NCBI RefSeq assembly: GCF_014635845.1
Contig: NZ_BMDP01000002.1
Location: forward strand, 620,001 to 684,000
Direction: 5' to 3'
Source: Oxalicibacterium solurbis
Lineage (GTDB): Bacteria > Pseudomonadota > Gammaproteobacteria > Burkholderiales > Burkholderiaceae_D
Length of the DNA: 64,000 bases
Each line of letters starts with the position of its first letter. Position 1 is the first letter of the stretch. A model generated the notes under the pieces. That model was not told where the DNA came from and made no database searches. It saw only the letters and a program-made list of their open reading frames with translations. This document shows positions 1,853-59,755 of the stretch, in pieces. Both the position numbers and the translations under genes were made by a program.

Positions 1853-3856
1853 TTGACCGTCGAATCCTCTGCCATACCCGAACCCGTGGACCACGATGAA
1901 GAAATCGACGTCCTCTTCGGCGTCGGCAGTCCGCTGGGACAGGCGGTCGGCGGCTTCCGTCCGCGCCAGTCGCAGACCGAAATGGCGAAAGCGATCGCCA
2001 GCGCCATCGCCAGCCGCAGCACGTTGATCGCCGAGGCGGGTACCGGCACCGGCAAGACTTTTGCCTATCTGGTGCCCTCGTTGCTGTGGGGCGGCAAGGT
2101 CATCGTTTCCACCGGTACCAAAAACCTGCAGGATCAACTGTATCTGCGTGATATCCCGACCGTGCGCCGTGCGCTGAATGCGCCGGTGTCGGTTGCGTTG
2201 TTGAAGGGGCGCGCCAACTACGTCTGCCATTTTCATCTCGAACGGACCTTGCAGAACGGCCGGCTGACGTCACGCGATGATGTCGGCCATCTGCGCGAAA
2301 TTTCGCGCTTCGTCAAAACCACAAGTACCGGCGACAAGGCCGAACTGTCGAAAGTGCCGGAGACGGCTTCGGTCTGGAATCTGGTTACGTCGACGCGCGA
2401 TACCTGCATGGGCGCCGAATGCCAGTATTACCAGGATTGTTTTGTGATGAAGGCGCGCAAGGAAGCGCAGCAGGCGGACGTGGTCGTCGTCAATCATCAC
2501 CTGTTCTTCGCTGACGTCGCGCTGAAGGATACCGGCGTGGCCGAGTTGCTGCCGTCGGCGAATACCGTGATCTTCGACGAGGCGCATCAATTGCCGGAAA
2601 CGGCGACATTGTTTTTCGGCGAGACGGTTTCCACATCGCAGGTATTGGAACTGTGCCGCGACGTGCTGGCTGAAGGACTGGCGCATGCGCGCGGCGGTGT
2701 CGACTGGCCGGCTGTCGTGACGACGGTGGAGCGTGCGGCGCGCGATCTGCGCCTGACCTTTCCGCAGGATTCCGTGCGTTTCTCCGTTGGGCAGATCGCG
2801 CCGTCCAGTCCGTTCTTCCCGGCGCTCGATGTGCTGAAGGATCAGCTGGATGCCATGCTGGCTGTACTCGAAAAACATGCGGAGCGTGCCGAAACGGTCG
2901 AGCAGTGCCGTGTGCGTGCGCTGGAACTGGCGATGCGCCTGGACGCATGGAACAAGTCGGTGCCCGATCCGATCATCGGCCAGGAAACCGTACAGTGGGT
3001 CGAAGCGTTTGCATCGTCGCTGCAACTGCATCGCACGCCGCTGTCGATTGCACCAATCTTCAACAAGCAGCGCGAAGGTTCGCCGCGATCCTGGATCTTC
3101 ACGTCGGCCACGCTGGCGGTAAAGAACGATTTCAACCACTACAGTGCGCAGATGGGGTTGTGGGAAGAGCAGGCGCAAAGCTGGCCCAGCCCTTTCGATT
3201 ACGGCAACCAGGGTTTGCTCTATGTGCCAGAAAACCTGCCGCAGCCGAATGCGCTCGAATATACCGACGCCATGATCGACGTAGCGCTGCCGGTGATCGA
3301 GGCTGCAGGCGGTCGCGCCTTCCTGCTGTGCACGACGATACGTGCCGTCAATCGTGCGGCTGAGCGACTGCGCGATGAATTCGCGCGGCGCAAGTTGCCG
3401 TTTCCGCTGATGGTGCAGGGCGAAGCCGGACGTACCGAATTGCTCGACCGTTTTCGCGCGGCCGGCAATGCCGTGCTGATTGGCAGCCAGAGTTTCTGGG
3501 AAGGCGTGGATGTGCGTGGCGATGCCTTGTCGCTCGTCATCATCGACAAGCTGCCGTTTTCGCCGCCGGACGATCCGGTGCTGGCGGCACGCATCGAAGC
3601 GCTGGAGAAAAAGGGGATGAACGGTTTCATTCATCATCAGCTGCCGGCGGCGATCATCAATCTGAAACAGGGCGCGGGCCGCCTGATTCGTGATGAAACG
3701 GATCGCGGCGTGTTGATGATCTGCGATCCGCGCCTGATTTCCAAACCGTACGGCCGTCGCATATGGCAGAGCTTGCCGCCATTCAAACGCACGCGCGAAC
3801 TGTCCGTTGTGCAGGCTTTCTTTGCATCGTCTGAGCAGACAGAGGACGTAGCATAG
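1853..3856 (+). CDS. ATP-dependent DNA helicase, DinG/YoaA type (XPD-like superfamily 2)
   Basis: This 667-residue protein starts at TTG (MTVESSAIPE). Helicase motifs are present: Walker A AEAGTGTGKT (about residues 61-70), DEAH box FDEAHQ (about 241-246), VVVNHHLFFADV, and the C-terminal block QGAGRLIRDETDRGV. Four cysteines between motif I and the DEAH box (YVCHF, DTCMGAEC, DCF) match the iron-sulfur cluster position of the XPD/DinG family. It unwinds DNA 5' to 3' and is linked in this family to repair and resolution of R-loops or stalled forks. Length and lack of an exonuclease domain fit YoaA/DinG of proteobacteria. It stands upstream of surE with about 100 bases between. Confidence 0.88.
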   Translation: MTVESSAIPEPVDHDEEIDVLFGVGSPLGQAVGGFRPRQSQTEMAKAIASAIASRSTLIAEAGTGTGKTFAYLVPSLLWGGKVIVSTGTKNLQDQLYLRDIPTVRRALNAPVSVALLKGRANYVCHFHLERTLQNGRLTSRDDVGHLREISRFVKTTSTGDKAELSKVPETASVWNLVTSTRDTCMGAECQYYQDCFVMKARKEAQQADVVVVNHHLFFADVALKDTGVAELLPSANTVIFDEAHQLPETATLFFGETVSTSQVLELCRDVLAEGLAHARGGVDWPAVVTTVERAARDLRLTFPQDSVRFSVGQIAPSSPFFPALDVLKDQLDAMLAVLEKHAERAETVEQCRVRALELAMRLDAWNKSVPDPIIGQETVQWVEAFASSLQLHRTPLSIAPIFNKQREGSPRSWIFTSATLAVKNDFNHYSAQMGLWEEQAQSWPSPFDYGNQGLLYVPENLPQPNALEYTDAMIDVALPVIEAAGGRAFLLCTTIRAVNRAAERLRDEFARRKLPFPLMVQGEAGRTELLDRFRAAGNAVLIGSQSFWEGVDVRGDALSLVIIDKLPFSPPDDPVLAARIEALEKKGMNGFIHHQLPAAIINLKQGAGRLIRDETDRGVLMICDPRLISKPYGRRIWQSLPPFKRTRELSVVQAFFASSEQTEDVA

Positions 3857-5598: not shown

Positions 5599-6489
5599 AT
5601 GCAGGAAAAGATTGAACGCAAGAAAATGAAAAAATCACGACTGATATTTCCGTTGCTGCTGTCCCTCGGGCTGGCAGCCTGCAGCACGACGCAACACAAT
5701 GCGCCGGTGAGCGAACGCACGATCGGCAGCGGCACGAGTGCATCGGCGCGGCAGACGGAGGACCGCACCTACTATACGGTGAAGAAGGGCGACACGCTGT
5801 ACCGGATCGCGCTCGACTTCGGCCAGAGTTACGGCGAACTGGTGACCTGGAACAATCTCGCCAATCCGAATGACATCAAGGTAGGCCAGGTGCTGCGCGT
5901 TGCACAGCCCGACATGCCGGCTGCCCGCAGTGGCGGTGCTCAGGTCGGTGCGGTTTCGACATCGTCCGGCGTCGAAACGCGTGCGCTGTCTGCACCGGCA
6001 CCTGTCGCCGGCAGCAACAAGACCGATCCGCGCGGTGACAAGCGCCCGTATTCCGATGCGACGATGGCCGGAATGCAAAAGGATGGCGAAAAACCGGAAG
6101 CTGCAGCGAATGGCGACGAGGATACGGTTTCCTGGATGTGGCCGGCAGACGGCAAGGTGGTTTCCAATTTCGATGACAGCAAGAAAGGCATCGATATCGC
6201 CGGCAAATCGGGGCAGCCCGTGCTGGCTGCCGGCGCCGGCAAGGTCATGTATGCCGGTAGCGGTATTCGCGGCTACGGCAATCTGGTCATCGTCAAGCAC
6301 ACCAGCACGTTGTTGTCGGCCTATGCGCACAACAAGACGATCAGCGTGAAGGAAGGCCAGACCGTCAGCAAGGGGCAGAAGATCGCCGAGATGGGCGATT
6401 CCGATGCCGATGCGGTCAAGCTGCACTTTGAAATCCGTCAGCAGGGCAAGCCTGTCGACCCTGCCAAATTCCTGCCGGCCCGCCAATGA
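5599..6489 (+). CDS. nlpD: Murein hydrolase activator NlpD (LysM plus degenerate LytM lipoprotein)
   Basis: This is a lipoprotein with a signal peptide ending LGLAACS (lipobox LAAC). The ATG at 5599 is annotated, but the in-frame ATG at 5626 (MKKSRLIF...) gives a cleaner signal peptide and may be the true start. A LysM domain follows ([17 protein letters not shown] to VGQVLRV), then a linker and a C-terminal M23/LytM domain. The zinc ligands are incomplete: GIDIAG lacks the usual preceding His, and LHFEI has only one His of the HxH pair. This agrees with NlpD acting as an activator of the amidase AmiC at the septum, not as a hydrolase itself. In this gene group the promoter for rpoS commonly lies inside nlpD. 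Confidence 0.93.
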
Positions 6490-7514
6490 CCAGAAATCGC
6501 GACGTCCAGTCCGACGATGAGCAAAATGCAGATGCATTGCCGTCGGACATGACGTTTCGATCCGCTGACGACGCAAACGACGACGGCGACGACGAAGAAA
6601 AGCAGCAGGAACCGGCTCGCCAGGCACCGGTCGAGATGGCCGGCATCGATGAACTGAAGAAGGTTCTGTCGACCGAACTGTCCACCGATGCGACCCAGCA
6701 TTACCTGAACCAGATCGGTTCACGCCCCTTGCTGACGGTCGAGCAGGAAGTCCATTATGCGACGCTGGCCAAGCAGGGCGATTTCGCCGGCCGGCAGAAG
6801 ATGATCGAGCACAACCTGCGTCTGGTCGTCTCGATTGCCAAGCATTACATCAACCGCGGCGTCGTGCTGCTCGACCTGATCGAGGAAGGCAACATCGGCC
6901 TGATGCGCGCGATCGACAAGTTCGAGCCTGAACGCGGTTTCCGTTTTTCGACCTATGCAACCTGGTGGATACGCCAGAGCATCGAGCGCGCGATCATGAA
7001 CCAGGCGCGTACCGTGCGTCTGCCGGTGCATGTGGTGCGCGAACTGAACCAGACACTTCGTGCGAAATTCCATCTGGAAGCGCAGCATCACGACGGCAAG
7101 GATGCAACGGCGGAAGACATTGCGCATCTGGTCGATCGCAGCGTCGAGGATGTGCAGGACATTCTGGCGCTTTCCGAGCATGCGACATCGCTGGATGCGC
7201 CGCTGGATGGTGATCCGCAAGCCAGTCTGATCGATCTGATACCGGGCGATCAGGCGAACGATCCCGACACGCAGGCGGAGCACCATGAAATGGCGGTGCT
7301 TGTGCGCGACTGGCTGGAAAAACTGCCGGACAAACAGCGCCTCGTCATCACGCGCCGTTTCGGACTCGATAACGACGATCCGGCCACGCTGGAAGAACTG
7401 GCGTCGGAAATGAACGTGACGCGCGAACGCATCCGGCAGATCCAGCAAGAGGCGCTGATCAAGCTCAAACGCTCGCTGGCACGTACTGGTGTCGGCAAGG
7501 ATTCTCTGCTCTGA
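6486..7514 (+). CDS. rpoS: RNA polymerase sigma factor RpoS (sigma-38)
   Basis: This 342-residue general stress and stationary-phase sigma factor overlaps nlpD by ATGA. It has an acidic N-terminal extension (about residues 1-45), then region 1.2 ([17 protein letters not shown]), region 2 ([49 protein letters not shown]), region 3, and region 4 with its helix-turn-helix ([20 protein letters not shown]). Reading the whole cluster, surE, pcm and nlpD supply survival, repair and envelope functions beside the regulator that controls them. It is followed by a short spacer without a U-rich terminator. Confidence 0.97.
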
Positions 7515-7642
7515 TCCTCCTTTCGCACGTAACGTGCTGAAGGCATGCGTCGCTACCGACGCAATTTGCTATCATCCGCACTCGCGATTTTTTCACCGAT
7601 CATCTGCCGGCAACCTTGCGATTCCGGCAACTTCCATTTCCT

Positions 7643-8992
7643 ATGCAGCAAACCACCATCGATATCGAATCCCTCGACATGGAGGCGCGCGGCGTCGGCC
7701 ATCTGCAGAATGAGGACGGCACGCCGGGCAAGGTCGTTTTCGTCGAAGGCGCATTGCCGAAAGAGCGTGTAGGTTTCTCTTCGTTCCGCAAAAAACCGAA
7801 CTGGGAAGCGGCGAAGCTGACTGAAATCTACAAGGAGTCGTCGCAGCGGGTGCAGCCGAAATGCCCGCATTTTGGCGTCTGTGGCGGCTGTTCGATGCAG
7901 CATCTCGACGCCGGTGCGCAGGTGGCGATGAAGCAGCGCATCCTTGAAGACAACCTGAAGCACATCGGCAAGGTCAGGGCACAGACGATGCTGCGCCCGA
8001 TTCACGGACCGACCTGGGGTTATCGCTACCGTGCACGCATTTCGGTACGCAACGTGCCGAAAAAGGGTGGAATCCTGGTCGGTTTCCATGAGCGAAAATC
8101 GAGCTATGTCTGCGACATGAAAAGCTGCGAAATCCTGCCGCCGAATGTATCGGCAATGCTGGTGCCGCTGCGGCATCTGATTACTTCGTTGGCTATTGCC
8201 GACCAGGTGCCACAGATCGAACTGGCAATCGGCGAAGGCGAAAACGGTCGAGCGACGACGGCCATGGTGCTGCGCAATATGGTGCCGTTGACGCCGGGCG
8301 ATGAACAGAAACTGGCGGCGTTCGCCACGCAGTATGGCGTGCAGTGGTGGCTGCAGCCGAAAGGGCCGGATACCGTATATCCGCTCGATCCGTCGGACGC
8401 TGACCTGCATTACCTGTTGCCGGAATTCGGTATCAAGATACCGTTCAAACCGACCGATTTCACACAAGTCAATCACCGTATCAACCGTGTTCTGGTGGCG
8501 CGTGCACTGCGTCTGCTGGATATACAGGCAGAGGATCGCGTCGCCGATCTGTTCTGCGGCCTAGGGAATTTCACCTTGCCGATCGCGACGCTGGCGAAGG
8601 AAGTTGTCGGGATCGAGGGCAGCGATCTCCTGACCGAGCGCGCGCTGGAAAATGCCAGGGCGAACGATGTGGCGGAGCATACGACCTTTTATTGCCGCAA
8701 TCTGTTCGAGGCCAAGCCGGAAGATTTTGTCGCGTTGGGAAGATTCGATCGCATGCTGATCGACCCGCCGCGTGAAGGAGCGGCCGCGGTCTGCGAGGCG
8801 CTGATGGAACTGGCGCAGACACATCCGAAGCTGCTGCCGCGCCGTATCGTCTATGTATCGTGCAATCCATCGACGCTGGCGCGCGACGCGGCGGTGCTGG
8901 TGCAGGGCGGTTACGTGTTGCAGCACGCTGGCGTGGTCAACATGTTTCCGCATACGTCGCACGTCGAGTCGATGGCAGTGTTCGACCTGTAG
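7643..8992 (+). CDS. rlmD: 23S rRNA (uracil-5-)-methyltransferase RlmD (RumA)
   Basis: This enzyme makes 5-methyluridine at U1939 of 23S rRNA (E. coli numbering). The start chosen is ATG at 7643 (MQQTTIDIES), giving 449 residues; an upstream TTG at 7616 is less likely. A TRAM-like RNA-binding domain is N-terminal, followed by iron-sulfur cysteines CPHFGVCGGC (about residues 73-82), the SAM-binding region VADLFCGLGNFTLP and the catalytic block IVYVSCNPSTLARD with the nucleophilic cysteine. A candidate extended -10 TGCTATCAT lies at 7567-7575. A rho-independent terminator follows the stop codon. Confidence 0.95.
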   Translation: MQQTTIDIESLDMEARGVGHLQNEDGTPGKVVFVEGALPKERVGFSSFRKKPNWEAAKLTEIYKESSQRVQPKCPHFGVCGGCSMQHLDAGAQVAMKQRILEDNLKHIGKVRAQTMLRPIHGPTWGYRYRARISVRNVPKKGGILVGFHERKSSYVCDMKSCEILPPNVSAMLVPLRHLITSLAIADQVPQIELAIGEGENGRATTAMVLRNMVPLTPGDEQKLAAFATQYGVQWWLQPKGPDTVYPLDPSDADLHYLLPEFGIKIPFKPTDFTQVNHRINRVLVARALRLLDIQAEDRVADLFCGLGNFTLPIATLAKEVVGIEGSDLLTERALENARANDVAEHTTFYCRNLFEAKPEDFVALGRFDRMLIDPPREGAAAVCEALMELAQTHPKLLPRRIVYVSCNPSTLARDAAVLVQGGYVLQHAGVVNMFPHTSHVESMAVFDL

Positions 8993-40038: not shown

Positions 40039-40587
40039 ATGGCCAAGAAAAGCGTCGTGTCGGAATCCCAGGAAATTCAACTCGCCATCGAGCTGATCAA
40101 TCTAGGGGCAAGGTTGCAATTGCTGGAATCGGAAACCTCGCTGTCACGCGAACGCTTGTTGAAATTGTATAAAGAGTTGCGCGGCGTATCTCCGCCGAAG
40201 GGCATGCTGCCGTTTTCGACGGACTGGTTCATCACCTGGCAGCCAAATATCCATTCGTCGCTGTTCATCGGTATCCATAAATATCTGATCGAGCATGCGC
40301 AGGTTACGGGTATTCATGCCGTCATCAAGGCTTACAAACTGTATCTGGAACAAGTCGGCCCGGGGCCGGATGGCGAACCGGTGCTGTCATTGACCCGCGC
40401 CTGGACGCTGGTGCGCTTTTTCGAGAGTAAAATGCTGTCGACTACCTGCTGCAGCGAATGCGGCGGTCATTTTGTGGTCCACCATCTGGATCTGAATGCA
40501 AACTATACCTGCGGCCTGTGCCATATGCCGTCCCGCGCTGGCAAGACCAAGCGTGCCAAGCAGGATGCGAGTGCCTTGGCAGCATAA
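40039..40587 (+). CDS. flhC: Flagellar transcriptional activator FlhC
   Basis: This DNA-binding partner of FlhD has 182 residues. A helical N-terminal half (QEIQLAIELINLGARLQLLESET) is followed by the zinc site near the C-terminus with CCSECGGHF and CGLCHMP, giving the four cysteine ligands of FlhC. The protein directs the complex to flagellar class II promoters. A basic tail (RAGKTKRAKQ) ends the protein. The downstream gene begins 23 bases later and may be translated from the same message. Confidence 0.96.
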   Translation: MAKKSVVSESQEIQLAIELINLGARLQLLESETSLSRERLLKLYKELRGVSPPKGMLPFSTDWFITWQPNIHSSLFIGIHKYLIEHAQVTGIHAVIKAYKLYLEQVGPGPDGEPVLSLTRAWTLVRFFESKMLSTTCCSECGGHFVVHHLDLNANYTCGLCHMPSRAGKTKRAKQDASALAA

Positions 40588-40610
40588 AAACTAAAAACTT
40601 AACGATTCCT

Positions 40611-41408
40611 GTGAAAATCGAGAGGCGCTCCGGCGCAAGGCCGGCGCCTCCGGCATTCGGGAAAACGCCTGCCATCCTGGCGCTGCTGTTGCAGATCGCC
40701 GCCTTTCTGACTGTTTTGCTGCTTGCTGCGGGCCTGAGCGTGATTTTTCAGGCTTCGTTCAACATCCTGGTTGCAGCAATCCTGCAGGGGGCAATCGCTG
40801 CTGTGCTGTCTTGCTGGTGTCGACAAGCTTGGTGGTGGTGGATCATCCAGTTTCTTTTTCCCATTCTGCTGATTGTTGGGTTGGCGCTGCAGTTGCCGCC
40901 GATCTTGTTTCTGGCAGCCTTCCTGACCTTCCTTGTTTTGTATTGGAGTACATTCAGGACACAGGTACCGTACTATCCGTCGCGTTTGCCGGTGTGGCAG
41001 GCTGTCGAAGCAGTGTTGCCGGAGCGGGAAGGGCTGCGCTTCATCGATATTGGTTGCGGTTTCGGCGGGCTGGTTCTGCACTTGGCGCAACGACAGCTTT
41101 CTAGCCACTTTTCCGGTATCGAAATTGCACCTCTTCCATGGGCCATTGCCCGGTTGCGTGCGTGTATGACAGGCAGTGCGACGCAATTTATACGCGGTGA
41201 TTACCGTTCGCTCGATCTGGCAGATTATGACGTCGTCTTCGCCTACCTGTCGCCCGTTGCCATGCCGGGCTTATGGGAAAAGGCTCACGCCGAAATGCGC
41301 CCGGGCAGCCTGTTGCTCAGCTATGAATTCCCTATTGTCGACGTGCCGGCGGACGAGATTGTCTCTCCGCAAGAGGGCGGTCCCGCGCTGCATGTCTGGC
41401 GTCTTTGA
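40611..41408 (+). CDS. Membrane-anchored class I SAM-dependent methyltransferase
   Basis: Read from GTG at 40611 (MKIERRSGARPA) the product has 265 residues. The N-terminal ~110 residues hold several hydrophobic helices (LALLLQIAAFLTVLLLAAGL, SVIFQASFNILVAAILQG, IIQFLFPILLIVGLALQL, PILFLAAFLTFLVLYW). The C-terminal half is a Rossmann-type methyltransferase: FIDIGCGFGGLVLHLAQRQ is motif I, followed by GIEIAPLPWAIARLR and the acidic YDVVFAYLSPVAMPGLW. The substrate is unknown, and no named family was recognised. The position between flhC and motA suggests a link to flagella, but it might be a passenger gene. Confidence 0.7.
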   Translation: MKIERRSGARPAPPAFGKTPAILALLLQIAAFLTVLLLAAGLSVIFQASFNILVAAILQGAIAAVLSCWCRQAWWWWIIQFLFPILLIVGLALQLPPILFLAAFLTFLVLYWSTFRTQVPYYPSRLPVWQAVEAVLPEREGLRFIDIGCGFGGLVLHLAQRQLSSHFSGIEIAPLPWAIARLRACMTGSATQFIRGDYRSLDLADYDVVFAYLSPVAMPGLWEKAHAEMRPGSLLLSYEFPIVDVPADEIVSPQEGGPALHVWRL

Positions 41409-43535: not shown

Positions 43536-44087
43536 ATGACGACCACCTCCAATTCGCTGGCGCTTCAGATCAAGGATCTGTTGTCGACGTTGTCGGAACA
43601 TGGCCGGCAACACCTGAACGAGCTTGAGACCGACCTGATGCAGACGAATGTGCTGCTGACGGAAGCGATCGAAAAACTCGGTGCCAGTTTCATGGCAATC
43701 CATGAGGCGGTAATTGCGCAGCAGCAGCTTGTCGATACGCTTTTGACAAAAGAAGAATCGTTGCCGACGGACGTGGTAAGGCTGCGTGAGCAAGCCAGCC
43801 AGATCGATCTGCATGTCAATTCGGCGGTGACGGGGCTGCAGTTTCAGGATATGACCAATCAGTTGATCGGGCGTACGATGCGTCGCGTGGTCGGATTCCG
43901 TGATGTGCTGGAGATTCTTGGAAATGGCGCGAATGGGCTGGAGTCGGAAGAAAGCGAAGATAGAATGGTTCGCGCGCTGAGCAAGATCAACGAAATGCTG
44001 GAAGCGGAAAATGCCGTGCTGGAACGGGAGCTGTGGAAAGCGGTACGGCAGACGCATATGGAAAGCGGCGACATCGAGTTGTTCTGA
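43536..44087 (+). CDS. CheZ-like chemotaxis protein (putative CheY-P phosphatase)
   Basis: From ATG 43536 the product is 183 residues, entirely helical and coiled-coil in look, with no transmembrane segment. Residues 104-109 read QDMTNQ within TGLQFQDMTNQLIGRTMRRV. This matches the CheZ catalytic motif QDLTGQ, where Asp and Gln (here D105 and Q109) act on phospho-CheY. The extreme C-terminus GDIELF resembles the acidic, hydrophobic peptide CheZ uses to dock CheY. It is shorter than E. coli CheZ (214 residues) and is encoded by motB and cheY. No other cheZ is seen in the cluster. Overall similarity to CheZ outside these motifs is not obvious by eye. Confidence 0.6.
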   Translation: MTTTSNSLALQIKDLLSTLSEHGRQHLNELETDLMQTNVLLTEAIEKLGASFMAIHEAVIAQQQLVDTLLTKEESLPTDVVRLREQASQIDLHVNSAVTGLQFQDMTNQLIGRTMRRVVGFRDVLEILGNGANGLESEESEDRMVRALSKINEMLEAENAVLERELWKAVRQTHMESGDIELF

Positions 44088-44144: not shown

Positions 44145-44510
44145 ATGGCAAAGACGATATTGGCAGTCGACGATTCGGGATCATTGCGACAGATGGTTGT
44201 GTTCAGCCTGCGGGCTGCCGGCTACCAGGTAACGGAAGCCGTCGATGGCCAGGATGGACTCGACAAGGCAAAGGGACAGGTATTCGATCTGGTGCTGACC
44301 GATCAGAACATGCCGCGCATGGATGGCTTCACGCTGATTCGTTCGCTCAGGGCGATGCCTACTTATCAGGGTGTGCCGATTCTGGTATTGACGACGGAAT
44401 CCAGCGACGAGATGAAGGCCAAGGGACGTGCCGCCGGCGCCAACGGCTGGCTGGTCAAGCCATTCGATCCGCAGCGGCTGACAGAAGTCGTGCGCAAGGT
44501 GATCGGTTGA
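44145..44510 (+). CDS. cheY: Response regulator receiver protein (first CheY-type)
   Basis: This 121-residue single receiver domain has ILAVDDSGSLRQM (acidic pocket DD near residues 9-10), the phosphoacceptor TDQNMPRMDG (D53), LTTES with the conserved threonine and the C-terminal lysine LVKPF. It is cytosolic and would carry the CheA phosphate. It lies directly before cheA and after the CheZ-like gene. A second, more E. coli-like CheY follows cheB, so one may be a phosphate sink and the other the motor regulator. Confidence 0.9.
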   Translation: MAKTILAVDDSGSLRQMVVFSLRAAGYQVTEAVDGQDGLDKAKGQVFDLVLTDQNMPRMDGFTLIRSLRAMPTYQGVPILVLTTESSDEMKAKGRAAGANGWLVKPFDPQRLTEVVRKVIG

Positions 44511-47316: not shown

Positions 47317-48195
47317 ATGAAAGCAGGCATGCAAGGGCGCGCGGAAGGCGTCAAGGAATTCGATTTCACCGCACGCGATTTCGAGCGTGTGCGGGCGCTG
47401 ATCCACAAGCGTGCCGGTATCGCGCTTGCCGAAAGCAAGCAGGAAATGGTCTACAGCCGCCTGGCGCGTAGATTGCGCGCGACCGGCATCGATTCGTTTA
47501 CCTCTTATCTGGACAGACTGGAGCAGGGCGGCGATGCCGACGAATGGGAGGCATTTACCAATGCGCTGACGACGAACCTGACGTCGTTCTTCCGTGAAGC
47601 GCATCATTTCCCCATTCTCGCCGAACACATCAAGAAGAAAGGGCGTGAGCCCATCGAGATCTGGTGCTCCGCCGCATCGACCGGGGAAGAACCGTATTCG
47701 ATCGCGATGACTGCCTGCGAAGCCTACAACACACTGACCCCGCCGGTTCGTATCATCGCGACCGACATCGATACGAACGTGTTGAACACTGGCGCCAGCG
47801 GCATCTATTCGATCGATCGCATCGAGAAGATGGAGCCGGAGCGCGCTAAGCGTTTCTTCCTGCGCGGCAAGGGCACGCGTGAAGGACTGGTACGTGTACG
47901 TCCGGAACTGCGGCAGATGATCACGTTCAAGCAAGTCAATCTGCTGGCCGATCAATGGGGCGTGTCGGGACCGTTCGACGTGATTTTCTGTCGCAACGTG
48001 ATGATTTATTTCGACAAGCCGACGCAGGGCAAGATACTCGACCGTTTTGCGCCGATGATGAAGGAAGACGGCCTGCTGTTCGCCGGGCATTCGGAAAACT
48101 TCCTGTACGTTTCCGACGCCTTCAAGCTGCGCGGCAAGACCGTGTATGAACTGGATCGCAACAGGAAAGCGGGCGGTGTCCCGCGTCGCGCGTGA
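47317..48195 (+). CDS. cheR: Chemotaxis protein methyltransferase CheR
   Basis: This enzyme methylates glutamates on chemoreceptors using SAM, for adaptation. It has 292 residues. The N-terminal helical domain ([41 protein letters not shown]) is followed by the SAM-binding core with [40 protein letters not shown] and [20 protein letters not shown]. It starts 63 bases after cheW and ends 10 bases before cheD. Confidence 0.97.
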
Positions 48196-48205
48196 GGTTG
48201 AACGC

Positions 48206-48811
48206 ATGAACGAATCGATCAAAGAACATTTCGCGACCAACGTCTACTACGACCGTACCTTCGATTGCGATGCCGCGAAGATCCTGCCTGGCGAGTACTA
48301 CTACACCGGCAAGGACATGCTGATTGTGACGGTGCTGGGATCCTGTGTGTCGGCCTGCATACGCGATCGCGTCAGCGGCGTGGGCGGCATGAACCATTTC
48401 ATGCTGCCTGACGGCGATGCGGACAGCCCGATTTCTGCCTCGGCCCGCTACGGCACCTATGCGATGGAAATCCTGATCAATGATTTGCTGAAAGCGGGTG
48501 CCAGACGGGAAAATCTCGAGGCCAAGGTTTTCGGCGGAGGTGCCGTGCTGCGCGGGTTTGTCGCGATGAATGTCGGCGAACGCAATGCGCAATTCGTCCG
48601 TAATTTCCTGAAGACCGAAAATATCCGCATCGCCGCCGAAGATCTCAATGACATCCACCCGCGCAAGGTGTATTACTTTCCGCGCAGCGGCAAGGTGCTG
48701 GTCAAGAAGCTGCGCCAACTGAACAACAACACGCTGGTCAATCGCGAACAGGATTATGCAAACCGCCTGCAGTCGCAGAATGTCGGCGGCGATGTCGAAC
48801 TTTTTTCCTGA
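48206..48811 (+). CDS. cheD: Chemoreceptor glutamine deamidase CheD
   Basis: This enzyme deamidates specific receptor glutamines to glutamates and in some species interacts with CheC. The chosen start at ATG 48206 ([19 protein letters not shown]) gives 201 residues; an upstream in-frame start would overlap cheR. Visible are the catalytic cysteine region [27 protein letters not shown] (Cys and His in order) and [11 protein letters not shown]. It is followed by cheB 36 bases later. Confidence 0.94.
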
Positions 48812-50047: not shown

Positions 50048-50440
50048 ATGGCAGGTCCAAACACCAAATTTCTCGTAGTTGATGATTTTTCAACAATGCG
50101 CCGCATTGTTCGCAACCTGCTGAAGGAATTGGGCTACACGAATGTCGACGAAGCAGAGGACGGCGCGATGGCGCTGGCCAAGCTGCGTGCCGAACAGTTC
50201 GACTTCGTGGTTTCCGACTGGAACATGCCGAACATGGACGGCCTGACGATGTTGCAGCAGATTCGTGCCGATCCTGCACTGTCCAAACTTCCTGTGCTGA
50301 TGGTGACGGCCGAGGCCAAGAAGGAAAACATCATTGCGGCCGCACAGGCAGGCGCAAACGGCTACGTGGTCAAGCCGTTCACTGCCGCCACGCTGGACGA
50401 AAAACTGGCGAAAATCTTCGAAAAAATGGGCGGGGCCTGA
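50048..50440 (+). CDS. cheY: Chemotaxis response regulator CheY (second copy)
   Basis: This 130-residue receiver domain is closer to E. coli CheY than the first copy: [48 protein letters not shown] with D59 as phosphoacceptor ([13 protein letters not shown] start), [27 protein letters not shown] with the conserved Thr and Lys. It likely binds FliM to change rotation direction. It is preceded by 123 bases without a gene and followed by a 273-base gap. E. coli and Burkholderia have cheZ directly after; here it is absent. Confidence 0.95.
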
Positions 50441-50525
50441 GCGGCCTTCGCCGTGTCTGTTCATGACGCGGCATCAAGGGGGAGTGTGCATGCTGCCGAT
50501 CTGCGCATCAGCAAATCGTCGCGAT

Positions 50526-50554
50526 GCCGGCTGCGTGCCTTGCGTGCAGCCGGC
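50526..50554 (+). other. Perfect 9-base inverted repeat after the second cheY
   Basis: GCCGGCTGC (50526-50534) and GCAGCCGGC (50546-50554) pair exactly around an 11-base loop. No T-run follows, so it is not a standard terminator. It lies in the 273-base gap before the EAL-HDOD gene. Confidence 0.45.
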
Positions 50555-50713
50555 GCTGCCTGCTTCCATCATCCGTTCTCCCCACCTGAAATTTCCCTTG
50601 CTCGTTGTCGGTAAACTCATGCTTCGCCGAAATGAGCGGGATATCGCCTTCTCCGATTTCCGTTTTTCGATTCATTTTCCGATTCATTTCCCGACTCTTC
50701 AGCATTGATTCCC

Positions 50714-57475: not shown

Positions 57476-58212
57476 TGGCAATGTATACAGCGACCGGCAA
57501 ATCCGACAAGGAACACCTGATCAGCGAGCATGCTCCGCTGGTCAAGAAGCTGGCGCATCAGATGAAGGCGAAGCTGCCGCCCAGTGTCGAAGTGGACGAT
57601 CTGATCCAAGCCGGCATGATGGGCTTGCTCGATGCCGTCAACCGCTACGAGGAAACGCACGGCGCGCAGTTCGAGACCTACGCTGTGCAGCGCATTCGCG
57701 GCGCCATGCTGGACGAGCTGCGCAGCAGTGACTGGATGCCGCGCAGCATGCGGCAGAACATGCGCAAGATCGAGGTGGCGATGAACCAGTTGCAGCAGCA
57801 ACTGGGCCGTGCACCGAATGAAAGCGAAGTGGCGCGCCAGTTGAAGTTGTCGCTGGCTGATTATCAGGATTTGCTGAGCGACGGCGGCGGCCACCAACTG
57901 GTCTATTACGAGGATTTTCACGATAACGACGAGAGCGAACATTTCCTCGACCGTTACTGCACCGACGAATCGTCCGACCCATTGCAAAACCTGATGAATA
58001 CCGGTTTTCGCTCGGCTGTCATTTCTGCCATCGAAGCGTTGCCGGAACGGGAAAAGATATTGATGGGCCTGTACTACGAACAGGAAATGAATTTAAAAGA
58101 AATCGGCGCCATCATGGGAGTGACGGAATCGCGCGTATCGCAATTGCATAGCCAGGCGATCGCGCGGATGCGTGCCAACTTAAGGGAGAAGGCGTGGACT
58201 GGGGTAGCTTAG
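57472..58212 (+). CDS. fliA: Flagellar sigma factor FliA (sigma-28)
   Basis: This sigma factor transcribes late flagellar, motor and chemotaxis genes and is held by anti-sigma FlgM. It has 246 residues. Region 2 (LAHQMKAKLPPSVEVDDLIQAGMMGLLDAVNRYEETHGAQFETYAVQRIRGAMLDELRSSDWMPRS), region 3 and region 4 (ALPEREKILMGLYYEQEMNLKEIGAIMGVTESRVSQLHSQAIARMR) are all present. Several in-frame starts lie within nine bases; ATG 57472 overlaps the flhG stop. The gene overlaps motC by 19 bases. Confidence 0.96.
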   Translation: MMAMYTATGKSDKEHLISEHAPLVKKLAHQMKAKLPPSVEVDDLIQAGMMGLLDAVNRYEETHGAQFETYAVQRIRGAMLDELRSSDWMPRSMRQNMRKIEVAMNQLQQQLGRAPNESEVARQLKLSLADYQDLLSDGGGHQLVYYEDFHDNDESEHFLDRYCTDESSDPLQNLMNTGFRSAVISAIEALPEREKILMGLYYEQEMNLKEIGAIMGVTESRVSQLHSQAIARMRANLREKAWTGVA

Positions 58213-58934
58213 TCGGCATCATACTGGCGATCGGAGGCATCCTCGTCGGACAGACTCTGGAGGGTGGCAAGCTCGGTTCGTTGATTCAGCCTGCGGCTTT
58301 CGTCATCGTCATCATCGGTACGATCGGCGCGGTGCTGCTGCAGAGCGGCTGGAGCAACTTCGCCGCCGGCATCCGGTTGGCGGGGCAGGTCTTCATGCCC
58401 AAGCAAGACGATTATGCCGAGCTGATCCGCAACGTCACCAGTTGGAGCGTGATTGCACGCCGCGAAGGGTTGTTGAGCCTGGAGCGTGTGATTAGCGATA
58501 TCGACGATCCGTTTACCGAGCATGGCCTGCGCCTGATCGTGGATGGCGTGGATCCGAAAAAGCTGCGCGAAGTGCTGGAGCTGGAAATCACCGCACATGA
58601 AGCGAAACAGCGTCTGGCGATCAAGGTATGGGAGTCGGCTGGCGGCTATGCACCGACGATCGGTATCCTCGGCGCGGTGATCGGCCTGATCCACGTGATG
58701 GAGAACCTGTCCGATCCGAGCAAGCTGGGCAGCGGTATCGCGGTTGCCTTCGTTGCGACGATCTACGGCGTCGGCTTTGCCAACCTGGTCTTCCTGCCGA
58801 TTGCCAACAAGCTCAAGGCGCTGGTCAATCGCGAGGTTTTCAAGCATGAGATGCTGGCCGATGCATTCGCCGGCATCGCTTCCGGCGACAATCCGCGTCT
58901 GATCGAAGAGCGGATGAACATCTATCTGGCGTAA
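58194..58934 (+). CDS. motC: Second flagellar motor stator protein, MotA/TolQ family (MotC)
   Basis: This 246-residue paralogue of MotA starts at GTG (MDWGSLVGIILAIGGILVGQTLEGG), overlapping fliA. It has four membrane helices (two at the start, and ILGAVIGLIHVMENLSDPSKLG with IAVAFVATIYGVGFANLVFLPIANK near the end) and a cytoplasmic loop (ARREGLLSLERVISDIDDPF). The MotC/D stator pair is known in Pseudomonas and others, and is often used for swarming or in different media. Position after fliA, paired with motD, supports this call. Confidence 0.92.
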   Translation: MDWGSLVGIILAIGGILVGQTLEGGKLGSLIQPAAFVIVIIGTIGAVLLQSGWSNFAAGIRLAGQVFMPKQDDYAELIRNVTSWSVIARREGLLSLERVISDIDDPFTEHGLRLIVDGVDPKKLREVLELEITAHEAKQRLAIKVWESAGGYAPTIGILGAVIGLIHVMENLSDPSKLGSGIAVAFVATIYGVGFANLVFLPIANKLKALVNREVFKHEMLADAFAGIASGDNPRLIEERMNIYLA

Positions 58935-58969
58935 CGGCATTTCCGTTCACGACCGCGAGCGCAATCCGC

Positions 58970-59755
58970 ATGGCACGTAAAAAACACGAGGAAGAACACG
59001 AAAACCATGAGCGCTGGCTGGTGTCGTATGCCGACTTCATCACGCTGCTGTTCGCTTTCTTCGTCGTGATGTATGCGATCTCGTCGGTCAACGAGGGCAA
59101 GTACCGCGTGCTTTCCGAATCGCTGGGCATCGCCTTCGGCGGTCCGACCGAGAAGACCACGGTCATCCGTGAAGCCGAGCGCGTGCGCACCATTGTGCCG
59201 CTGCCGATCCAGATGCCGCAGCCGCAACCGCAGCCACGCCTCGATCCGGCAATCAAGCGCGAGCGCGCGCAGATGACCGATATCGCGCGCGACATCCTGA
59301 AAGCGATGGCGCCGCTGATCAGTCAGGGCAAGGTACGTGTGACGCAAAGTGCGCGCGGTGTCAGCGTCGAGATCAATGCCAGCGTGCTGTTCGCGCCGGG
59401 CGAGGCAAAGCTGAGTCCGGAATCGGAAGCAGCGCTGCGCGCCGTCGCCAAGGTGCTGACGAAAGTGGATAACGCCATCCAGGTCGAAGGCCATACCGAC
59501 AACGTGCCGATCAGCAATGCGATGTTTCCTTCGAATTGGGAATTGTCGGCAGTACGTGCCAGCAGCGTGGTGCGGCTGTTCGTCGACAGCGGGATCGACG
59601 AGAAGCGCATGGTTGCCATGGGGCATGCGGCGAACGAGCCTGTGGCCTCCAACGAAACGACGGAAGGGCGCATGCGCAATCGTCGTGTGCAGTTGATGAT
59701 CCTCTCCGGATTGCCGGAAACGGTGACCGAAGTGCCGGTGACGTCGGACGACTGA
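58970..59755 (+). CDS. motD: Second flagellar motor stator protein, OmpA/MotB family (MotD)
   Basis: This 261-residue MotB paralogue has a charged N-terminus (MARKKHEEEHENHERWLVSYADFITLLFAFFVVMYAISSVNEGKY). The channel aspartate is D22 of SYADFITLLFAFFVVMYAI. The Pro/Gln-rich linker (PLPIQMPQPQPQPR) leads to an OmpA-type peptidoglycan-binding domain (VEGHTDNVPISNAMFPSNWELSAVRASSVVRLFVDSG). It forms the second stator with MotC. A 24-base run of pyrimidines follows the stop. Confidence 0.94.
   Translation: MARKKHEEEHENHERWLVSYADFITLLFAFFVVMYAISSVNEGKYRVLSESLGIAFGGPTEKTTVIREAERVRTIVPLPIQMPQPQPQPRLDPAIKRERAQMTDIARDILKAMAPLISQGKVRVTQSARGVSVEINASVLFAPGEAKLSPESEAALRAVAKVLTKVDNAIQVEGHTDNVPISNAMFPSNWELSAVRASSVVRLFVDSGIDEKRMVAMGHAANEPVASNETTEGRMRNRRVQLMILSGLPETVTEVPVTSDD

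Follow-up and report, generated by a model that had tools for sequence, protein, structure and literature searches.

We analyzed a 64,000-nucleotide stretch of DNA (the window) and found that P0001, the 183-residue product of an ATG-initiated ORF between motB and the first of two cheY genes (cheY1), is related through both of its arms to McpA-like chemoreceptors, carries a helix with local likeness to CheZ, and ends in a tail that it shares with the CheD of the same operon. A CheY-directed role for P0001 is likely. More specifically, we lean with modest conviction toward P0001 being a tail-docked phosphatase dedicated to the F7-type CheY1, derived from McpA and working beside CheZ. The initial annotation had described a helical protein of this size with QDMTNQ at residues 104 to 109 and a GDIELF end, encoded between motB and cheY1, and both the ORF and an AlphaFold prediction bear out that description.

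The gene lies in the order flhD-flhC-orf40458-motA-motB-P0001-cheY1-cheA-cheW-cheR-cheD-cheB-cheY2-EAL-flhB-flhA, with gene names read from the ORFs and with CheD and both CheYs confirmed by Pfam. It starts 37 bp after motB and stops 57 bp before cheY1 (Table 1). The F7 class of the cluster was judged from gene order alone. A scan for promoters and terminators at the locus gave about as many matches as shuffled sequences did. A methyltransferase-like ORF (by eye; window positions 40458 to 41408) lies between flhC and motA; most relatives examined have it at the same place, and L094 and L095 do not.

Table 1. Coordinates in the window of P0001, its parts, and its neighbors
Feature	Position	Strand	Evidence or remark
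P0001, hairpin-less McpA-type, CheZ-like protein, 183 aa	43536..44087	+	ORF, alignment, AlphaFold
N-arm of P0001, residues 10-74, homologous to the McpA-like receptor N-arm	43563..43757	+	Profile comparison, E 1.4e-9
Predicted turn joining helices 1 and 2, residues 72-77; site of the MCP signaling hairpin in receptors	43749..43766	+	
QDMTNQ, residues 104-109, CheZ-type D105-x-x-x-Q109 motif	43845..43862	+	
GDIELF, residues 178-183, C-terminal tail, proposed CheY1-docking peptide	44067..44084	+	
motB, upstream neighbor of P0001	42497..43498	+	
cheY1, F7-type CheY by position, proposed partner	44145..44510	+	Same 146/195 genomes as P0001 gene
cheA, same cluster as P0001	44564..46750	+	
cheD, ends ...GGDVELFS	48146..48811	+	PF03975, E 2.2e-32
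GDVELF tail of CheD	48788..48805	+	Only other C-terminal tail-pattern match in genome
cheY2, F6-like CheY by position	50048..50440	+	Pfam; stage 4 layout in the part of PMC7184735 available
Site of operon cheZ in same-genus relative; empty here, no remnant seen	50441..50704	.	

AlphaFold, supplied with 26 sequences, predicted helices at residues 2 to 71, 77 to 133, and 141 to 167 and a disordered tail (mean pLDDT, 81.2), so that the first two helices of the single chain form a long hairpin. Our family profile consists of 26 sequences, P0001 and 25 relatives, taken from Oxalobacteraceae, Methylophilaceae, and unplaced Burkholderiales or Betaproteobacteria records. Q104, D105, Q109, G178, L182, and F183 do not vary across the 26 aligned sequences, and the motif and the tail (the last residues are ESGDIELF) are therefore more than chance. 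This short form is apparently soluble. Pfam and NCBIfam returned only subthreshold noise for P0001, three short relatives had no NCBIfam match at an E value of 0.01, and a phmmer search of the PDB with P0001 found no match. The best PDB matches of the profile, syntaxin-type coiled coils with E values of 0.01 and worse, were set aside as general helix similarity. Foldseek on the model returned a mixture of BAR, F-BAR, and coiled-coil structures (best E value, 0.017, with none below 0.001); a soluble chemoreceptor from Thermotoga ranked ninth. VIA-align gave Z scores up to 11.0, inside the range that its notes give for helical bundles; we regard these structural matches as nonspecific. CheZ was absent from the 50 rows shown by each program, which proves nothing about a CheZ fold. 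A frameshift or other artifact as the origin of P0001 was rejected, as the gene is kept in 146 of 195 family genomes. Neither P0001 nor the long L105 protein had a match among PLSDB plasmids at the limits used.

In the phylum, 92 of 398 genomes had a match to the family profile. Most matches lie in open frames of about 330 to 460 residues, and most extend to the last position of the profile. The MCP domain PF00015 was found in 6 of 10 relatives scanned, all of them among the seven long ones; the remainder comprises three short forms and the long L117, and Pfam found no such domain in P0001. The C-terminal part of the long relatives matched P0001 with an E value of 2.1e-22 in a profile comparison. 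The receptor arm that precedes the MCP hairpin matched the P0001 N-arm over 65 columns (E value in Table 1), with a score that 0 of 300 heptad-phase shuffles reached. MAFFT, given L027 and short forms, had paired the P0001-type N-arm with the descending MCP arm; a separate profile test favors the receptor N-arm instead (score of 54.5 versus 8.5). The long L027 receptor, modeled from its single sequence, reached a mean pLDDT of 54.6, and this model was set aside. Because both arms match the receptor arms that flank the MCP hairpin, P0001 is, on the evidence of these profiles, the McpA-type chassis with the signaling hairpin missing at the predicted turn (residues 72 to 76).

Long and short forms fill the same slot ahead of cheY1-cheA. 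In the loci examined, the long forms lie either before cheY1-cheA (e.g., L027, L088, L089, L091 to L093, L132, L133, and L138) or after cheR-cheD-cheB (L139, L141 to L143, and L146), and the part of PMC7184735 available describes these two positions for the mcpA-like receptors of F7 clusters at stages 2 and 1. Since the positions match, we take the long relatives to be McpA-like, a name given by architecture and cluster position rather than by comparison with named McpA sequences. The P0001 family thus has in common with McpA-like (CttP) receptors the N-arm, the C-terminal part, the conserved C terminus, and the places in the cluster. As in the mcpA-like receptors described in that part of PMC7184735, the C terminus is conserved and lacks the CheR pentapeptide, and the gene is in or beside an F7 cluster. 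P0001 differs from the receptors in having no MCP signaling hairpin and in its length (183 versus about 330 to 460 residues). In four long relatives of family f39 (L117, L120, L125, and L128), the signaling hairpin is seemingly degenerate, the Pfam scan having covered L117 among them. In G412, the long receptor gene and cheY1 are separated by a transposase-like ORF (by eye; L191 positions 683 to 1468).

A CheA tree of 44 rows placed the 183-residue type within one group of 31 (support, 100/99) that also includes the two g15 genomes lacking the gene, along with the forms of 118 to 120 residues; the two f2 rows with short forms fell elsewhere, beside long-form rows. Several branches of this tree are long, its deep order is uncertain, and a program warning flags L088 and L089 as a possibly false grouping. 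L014, L020, and L023 were excluded in advance, L142 was dropped for its short length, and no CheA was obtained from L141, L143, or L146. If the long form is ancestral, the hairpin was lost at least twice with the motif and tail kept. The minimal forms of 118 to 120 residues are encoded between motB and cheY1 on the minus strand (L094 positions 8322 to 8678 and L095 positions 3257 to 3619).

The second helix of the predicted hairpin carries the CheZ-type motif. The family profile aligned with a profile of 37 CheZ sequences over 28 columns with D and Q in register (score, 29.5; P = 0.0016), and 0 of 300 heptad-preserving column shuffles reached this score (highest shuffle, 27.5); the hhalign probability was 16%. 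The long receptors aligned with the CheZ profile with the motif again in register (P = 0.044), and the P0001 N-arm showed no resemblance to CheZ (P = 0.2). A C-terminal profile made without CheZ returned 109 distinct candidates, comprising 104 relatives and five CheZs. D and Q stand at the CheZ spacing in 104 of the 104 relatives, receptors and short forms alike, a count biased toward the motif because the profiles were built from motif-bearing sequences; at the first Q of the motif, E, H, G, or D also occurs. The GxxELF tail is present in 102 relatives; it is lacking in L047, where a stop interrupts the copy, and in L211, which is another MCP. The five CheZs align without gaps over roughly 60 residues, their D and Q in register (best-domain E values, 1.8e-4 to 3.6e-4 in a search of 4,087 ORFs), and 22 of the 37 CheZs pass an E value of 0.01 with the C-terminal P0001 profile. 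PF04344, the CheZ model, gave subthreshold matches to L105 (E value, 0.0095) and L193 (E value, 0.014). We judge the apparent likeness to CheZ to be modest and local, confined to one helix of 28 to 60 residues. As far as the available parts of these papers go, DXXXQ is the active motif of CheZ (PMC7750401); the active site of CheY receives Gln147 of CheZ, and its lysine is paired with an acidic side chain (PMC3035606).

The P0001 gene is associated with cheY1. Across the 195 family genomes, the CheY1 ortholog and the P0001 gene occur in the identical 146, and CheY1 is found in 0 of the other 49; these 146 shared occurrences are not independent, as the genes are neighbors and one deletion or assembly gap may hit both. 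We defined a CheY1 ortholog by an E value of ≤6e-47 and ≥65% identity, a line drawn once the gap from 6e-47 to 1.1e-38 had been noticed, and did not count as CheY1 the weak CheY matches that were all that eight genomes offered (best E values, 1.4e-34 to 1.2e-29). Among the matches listed, which extend to an E value of 1.1e-38, 148 of 149 CheY1 copies have a P0001-type gene upstream on the same strand; the matched regions lie 27 to 288 bp apart (median, 68). Only a second CheY1 copy on C99 of G016 (6% contamination) has none, and a 10-kb stretch there showed no other chemotaxis gene. Duplicates keep the pairing, with two gene-cheY1 pairs in G183 and two in G025. In G014 (g15), motB stands beside cheA and both the P0001-type gene and cheY1 are gone, with cheA, cheW, cheR, cheD, cheB, cheY2, and cheZ retained, and G054 of the same genus keeps cheA, cheD, cheY2, and cheZ and has no CheY1.

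Outside the family, in f2, each of eight genomes with a CheY1 match (63 to 68%) has a relative of 139 to 164 residues directly before it, three of which the profile missed. Three f5 genomes (L202 to L204) and G028 (g28) have a diverged CheY (49 to 55% identity) directly after motB and no P0001-type gene. In 70 CheY1s encoded beside the gene, Phe20, Gly94, and Val104 are 97 to 100% conserved; in three CheYs encoded after motB without the gene, these positions read A,A,A; A,A,A; and E,E,R, and one of the three has lost the invariant Asn55, two residues after the phospho-Asp. This last sample is small and its members are related: five gene-less CheYs were compared, of which only L202, L203, and L206 lie after motB, and L204 failed the length filter. 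The P0001 gene is tied to CheY1 more closely than to CheZ.

The tail G-x-[VI]-[ED]-LF ends P0001 and, with one additional Ser, CheD. A DNA pattern for G-x-[VIM]-[ED]-[LF]-F had eight matches in the 3.04-Mb genome, and only two of them, P0001 and the CheD of the same operon, were at a C terminus. In distinct CheDs from the fetched loci, the tail is terminal, in some with one extra residue, in 37 of 41. The four without it come from g15 and g28, and in two further CheDs, from f5 (G442) and g28 (G061), the ELF motif is buried under an extension; all six are from genomes without a P0001-type gene, in three lineages. Five of the 37 tailed CheDs are from drafts in which the gene was not found (G046, G076, G090, G169, and G194), and other members of the same genera do have it. 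CheD (PF03975) is thus like P0001 in its tail and its operon and unlike it in having a CheD domain and no D-x-x-x-Q helix. Two f5 genomes in which P0001 had no match each encode a protein with a CheX domain (PF13690; E values, 2.1e-9 and 3.1e-10), and these proteins end in GELELF and GELDLF. They have in common with P0001 the type of C terminus and a gene beside a cheY, and they differ from it by the CheX domain and by having no such D-x-x-x-Q helix. Both (L209 positions 472 to 1458 and L210 positions 487 to 1467) have a long N-terminal region and are encoded directly before another CheY. CheY is the most plausible common partner of the CheZ-like, CheX-type, and CheD proteins with this tail, and for that reason we read the tail as a probable CheY-docking peptide. 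Among the papers listed in a literature search for the tail sequence, none was a chemotaxis paper by title.

The phosphatase reading that we prefer would work as follows. The ancestral F7 chemosensory cluster would have supplied the McpA-like receptor from which P0001, its MCP hairpin gone, descends. Its helical hairpin, which probably dimerizes into a four-helix bundle, would carry the CheZ-type helix and the flexible GxxELF tail. The tail would dock P0001 on phosphorylated CheY1 (CheY1-P), the product of the next gene, and Q109, helped by D105, would enter the CheY1-P active site and speed dephosphorylation. CheZ would then serve the F6-like CheY2 and P0001 would serve CheY1, and CheD may reach the same CheY by the same tail.

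An unlikely though serious alternative is that P0001 is a noncatalytic partner of CheY1: a buffer, scaffold, or stator-side adaptor whose tail holds CheY1-P and whose D...Q helix serves for binding. Binding is all that the CheY1 pairing and the tail in common with CheD need, and the first Q of the motif varies, whereas its D and last Q do not. However, D and Q keep the CheZ spacing in every relative, from receptors to short forms, and the CheX-domain proteins with the same tail belong to a phosphatase family.

We consider it improbable that P0001 is an array adaptor, a receptor remnant that joins receptor bundles or CheA/CheW while the tail recruits CheD or CheB and CheY1 is a mere neighbor. 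The tip of the MCP hairpin is the part that contacts CheA and CheW, and it is missing from P0001; moreover, G014 keeps cheA, cheW, cheR, cheD, and cheB though the gene and cheY1 are gone. The McpA ancestry of P0001 does favor an adaptor, as does the joining of McpA-type receptors to F6 arrays: in the parts of PMC9855816 and PMC7184735 available, these receptors in other species cluster with the F6 array, and in those of PMC9855816 and PMC7534058, McpA-like receptors are placed in or linked to that array and their C terminus is given no function. This location is the strongest literature result against a CheY1 phosphatase, as it would put the site of action away from the F7 kinase. Deletion of McpA left swimming unaffected, according to the available part of PMC9855816. 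The main text of PMC9855816 contains neither "CheZ" nor "phosphatase," and PMC7534058 has one mention of CheZ, which concerns E. coli.

In the literature that we searched, which lay mostly outside subscription journals, no phosphatase for an F7-type CheY is named and no link between an McpA-type protein or its C terminus and a CheY phosphatase appeared among the results listed. The part of PMC7184735 available reports that cheZ occurs only in the F6 systems of stage 1 and 2 genomes, where the F7 cluster has a CheY and no CheZ; that the C termini of McpA are strikingly conserved although their role is unclear; and that the loss of mcpA-like genes falls at stage 3. A CheY1 phosphatase of McpA descent would answer these three puzzles at once. 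A wider reading, which we offer tentatively, is that McpA-like receptors and their hairpin-less descendants are receptor-derived CheY phosphatases and the missing F7 phosphatase, that GxxELF is a common code by which CheZ-like, CheX-type, and CheD proteins dock on F7-type CheYs, and that the hairpin, not simply the receptor, was lost more than once in these betaproteobacteria. If true, this would add a CheY-phosphatase family found across the phylum, show a receptor turned into an output enzyme, and give the CheD of these systems a route to CheY. The 183-aa form is short and apparently soluble, which makes the hypothesis testable with purified proteins.

The same genome encodes a canonical, full-length CheZ about 230 kb from P0001 (G000:C2:429934-430548; PF04344 E value, 8.9e-65), with the motif and C terminus intact. 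Its gene adjoins a second cheA, and in the 18 kb around it we found no stand-alone cheY or cheW match, the sole CheY-like match being the receiver of an NtrC-type regulator. This pairing of the genome's only CheZ with a second CheA (621 aa) lies at L096 positions 6066 to 8732 on the minus strand. The initial annotation was right that no classical cheZ follows cheY2: the next gene is an EAL/HDOD-type ORF at 50705, and no remnant was seen in the window. A relative of the same genus (L097) has cheZ between cheY2 and the EAL gene, exactly the site that is empty here, and 12 of 12 other genus members sampled have two CheZ matches per genome compared with one here; the absence is most likely a secondary loss. 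The 195 family genomes include 146 with a P0001 relative and 160 with CheZ; 144 have both, 33 have neither, 16 have CheZ without the P0001 gene, and 2 have the P0001 gene without CheZ.

These results do not support the initial proposal that P0001 is the CheZ of this lineage, shortened and moved beside the stator genes. An unambiguous cheZ is present elsewhere in this genome, CheZ coexists with the gene in 144 of 146 family genomes, and the ancestry of P0001 is McpA-like. PF04344 was not among the families listed for P0001 at an E value of ≤10, and the same model detects the genome's true CheZ. Neither PF13690 nor a related CheX/CheC domain was among the matches listed for P0001, and we rejected membership in that family. 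What survives of the suggested CheZ motif in QDMTNQ is the D-x-x-x-Q in register with CheZ, and not a match to the CheZ family model. P0001 resembles CheZ (PF04344) in that this motif lies on the second of two helices predicted to form a hairpin and that its gene adjoins a cheY. It differs in that its gene is beside cheY1 rather than cheY2, and in its end, ESGDIELF, where CheZ has ...LLxxLGF (LLDSLGF). It is very improbable that P0001 is the working CheZ of the genome, acting on both CheYs now that the operon cheZ is lost, which the empty site after cheY2 and the single CheZ far from the gene in other family genomes (e.g., G048) would fit, since a full CheZ remains and the gene follows CheY1 more closely than CheZ. 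Farther down the flagellar region, at window positions 58194 to 59755, lies a second stator-type pair (motA/motB-like, by eye).
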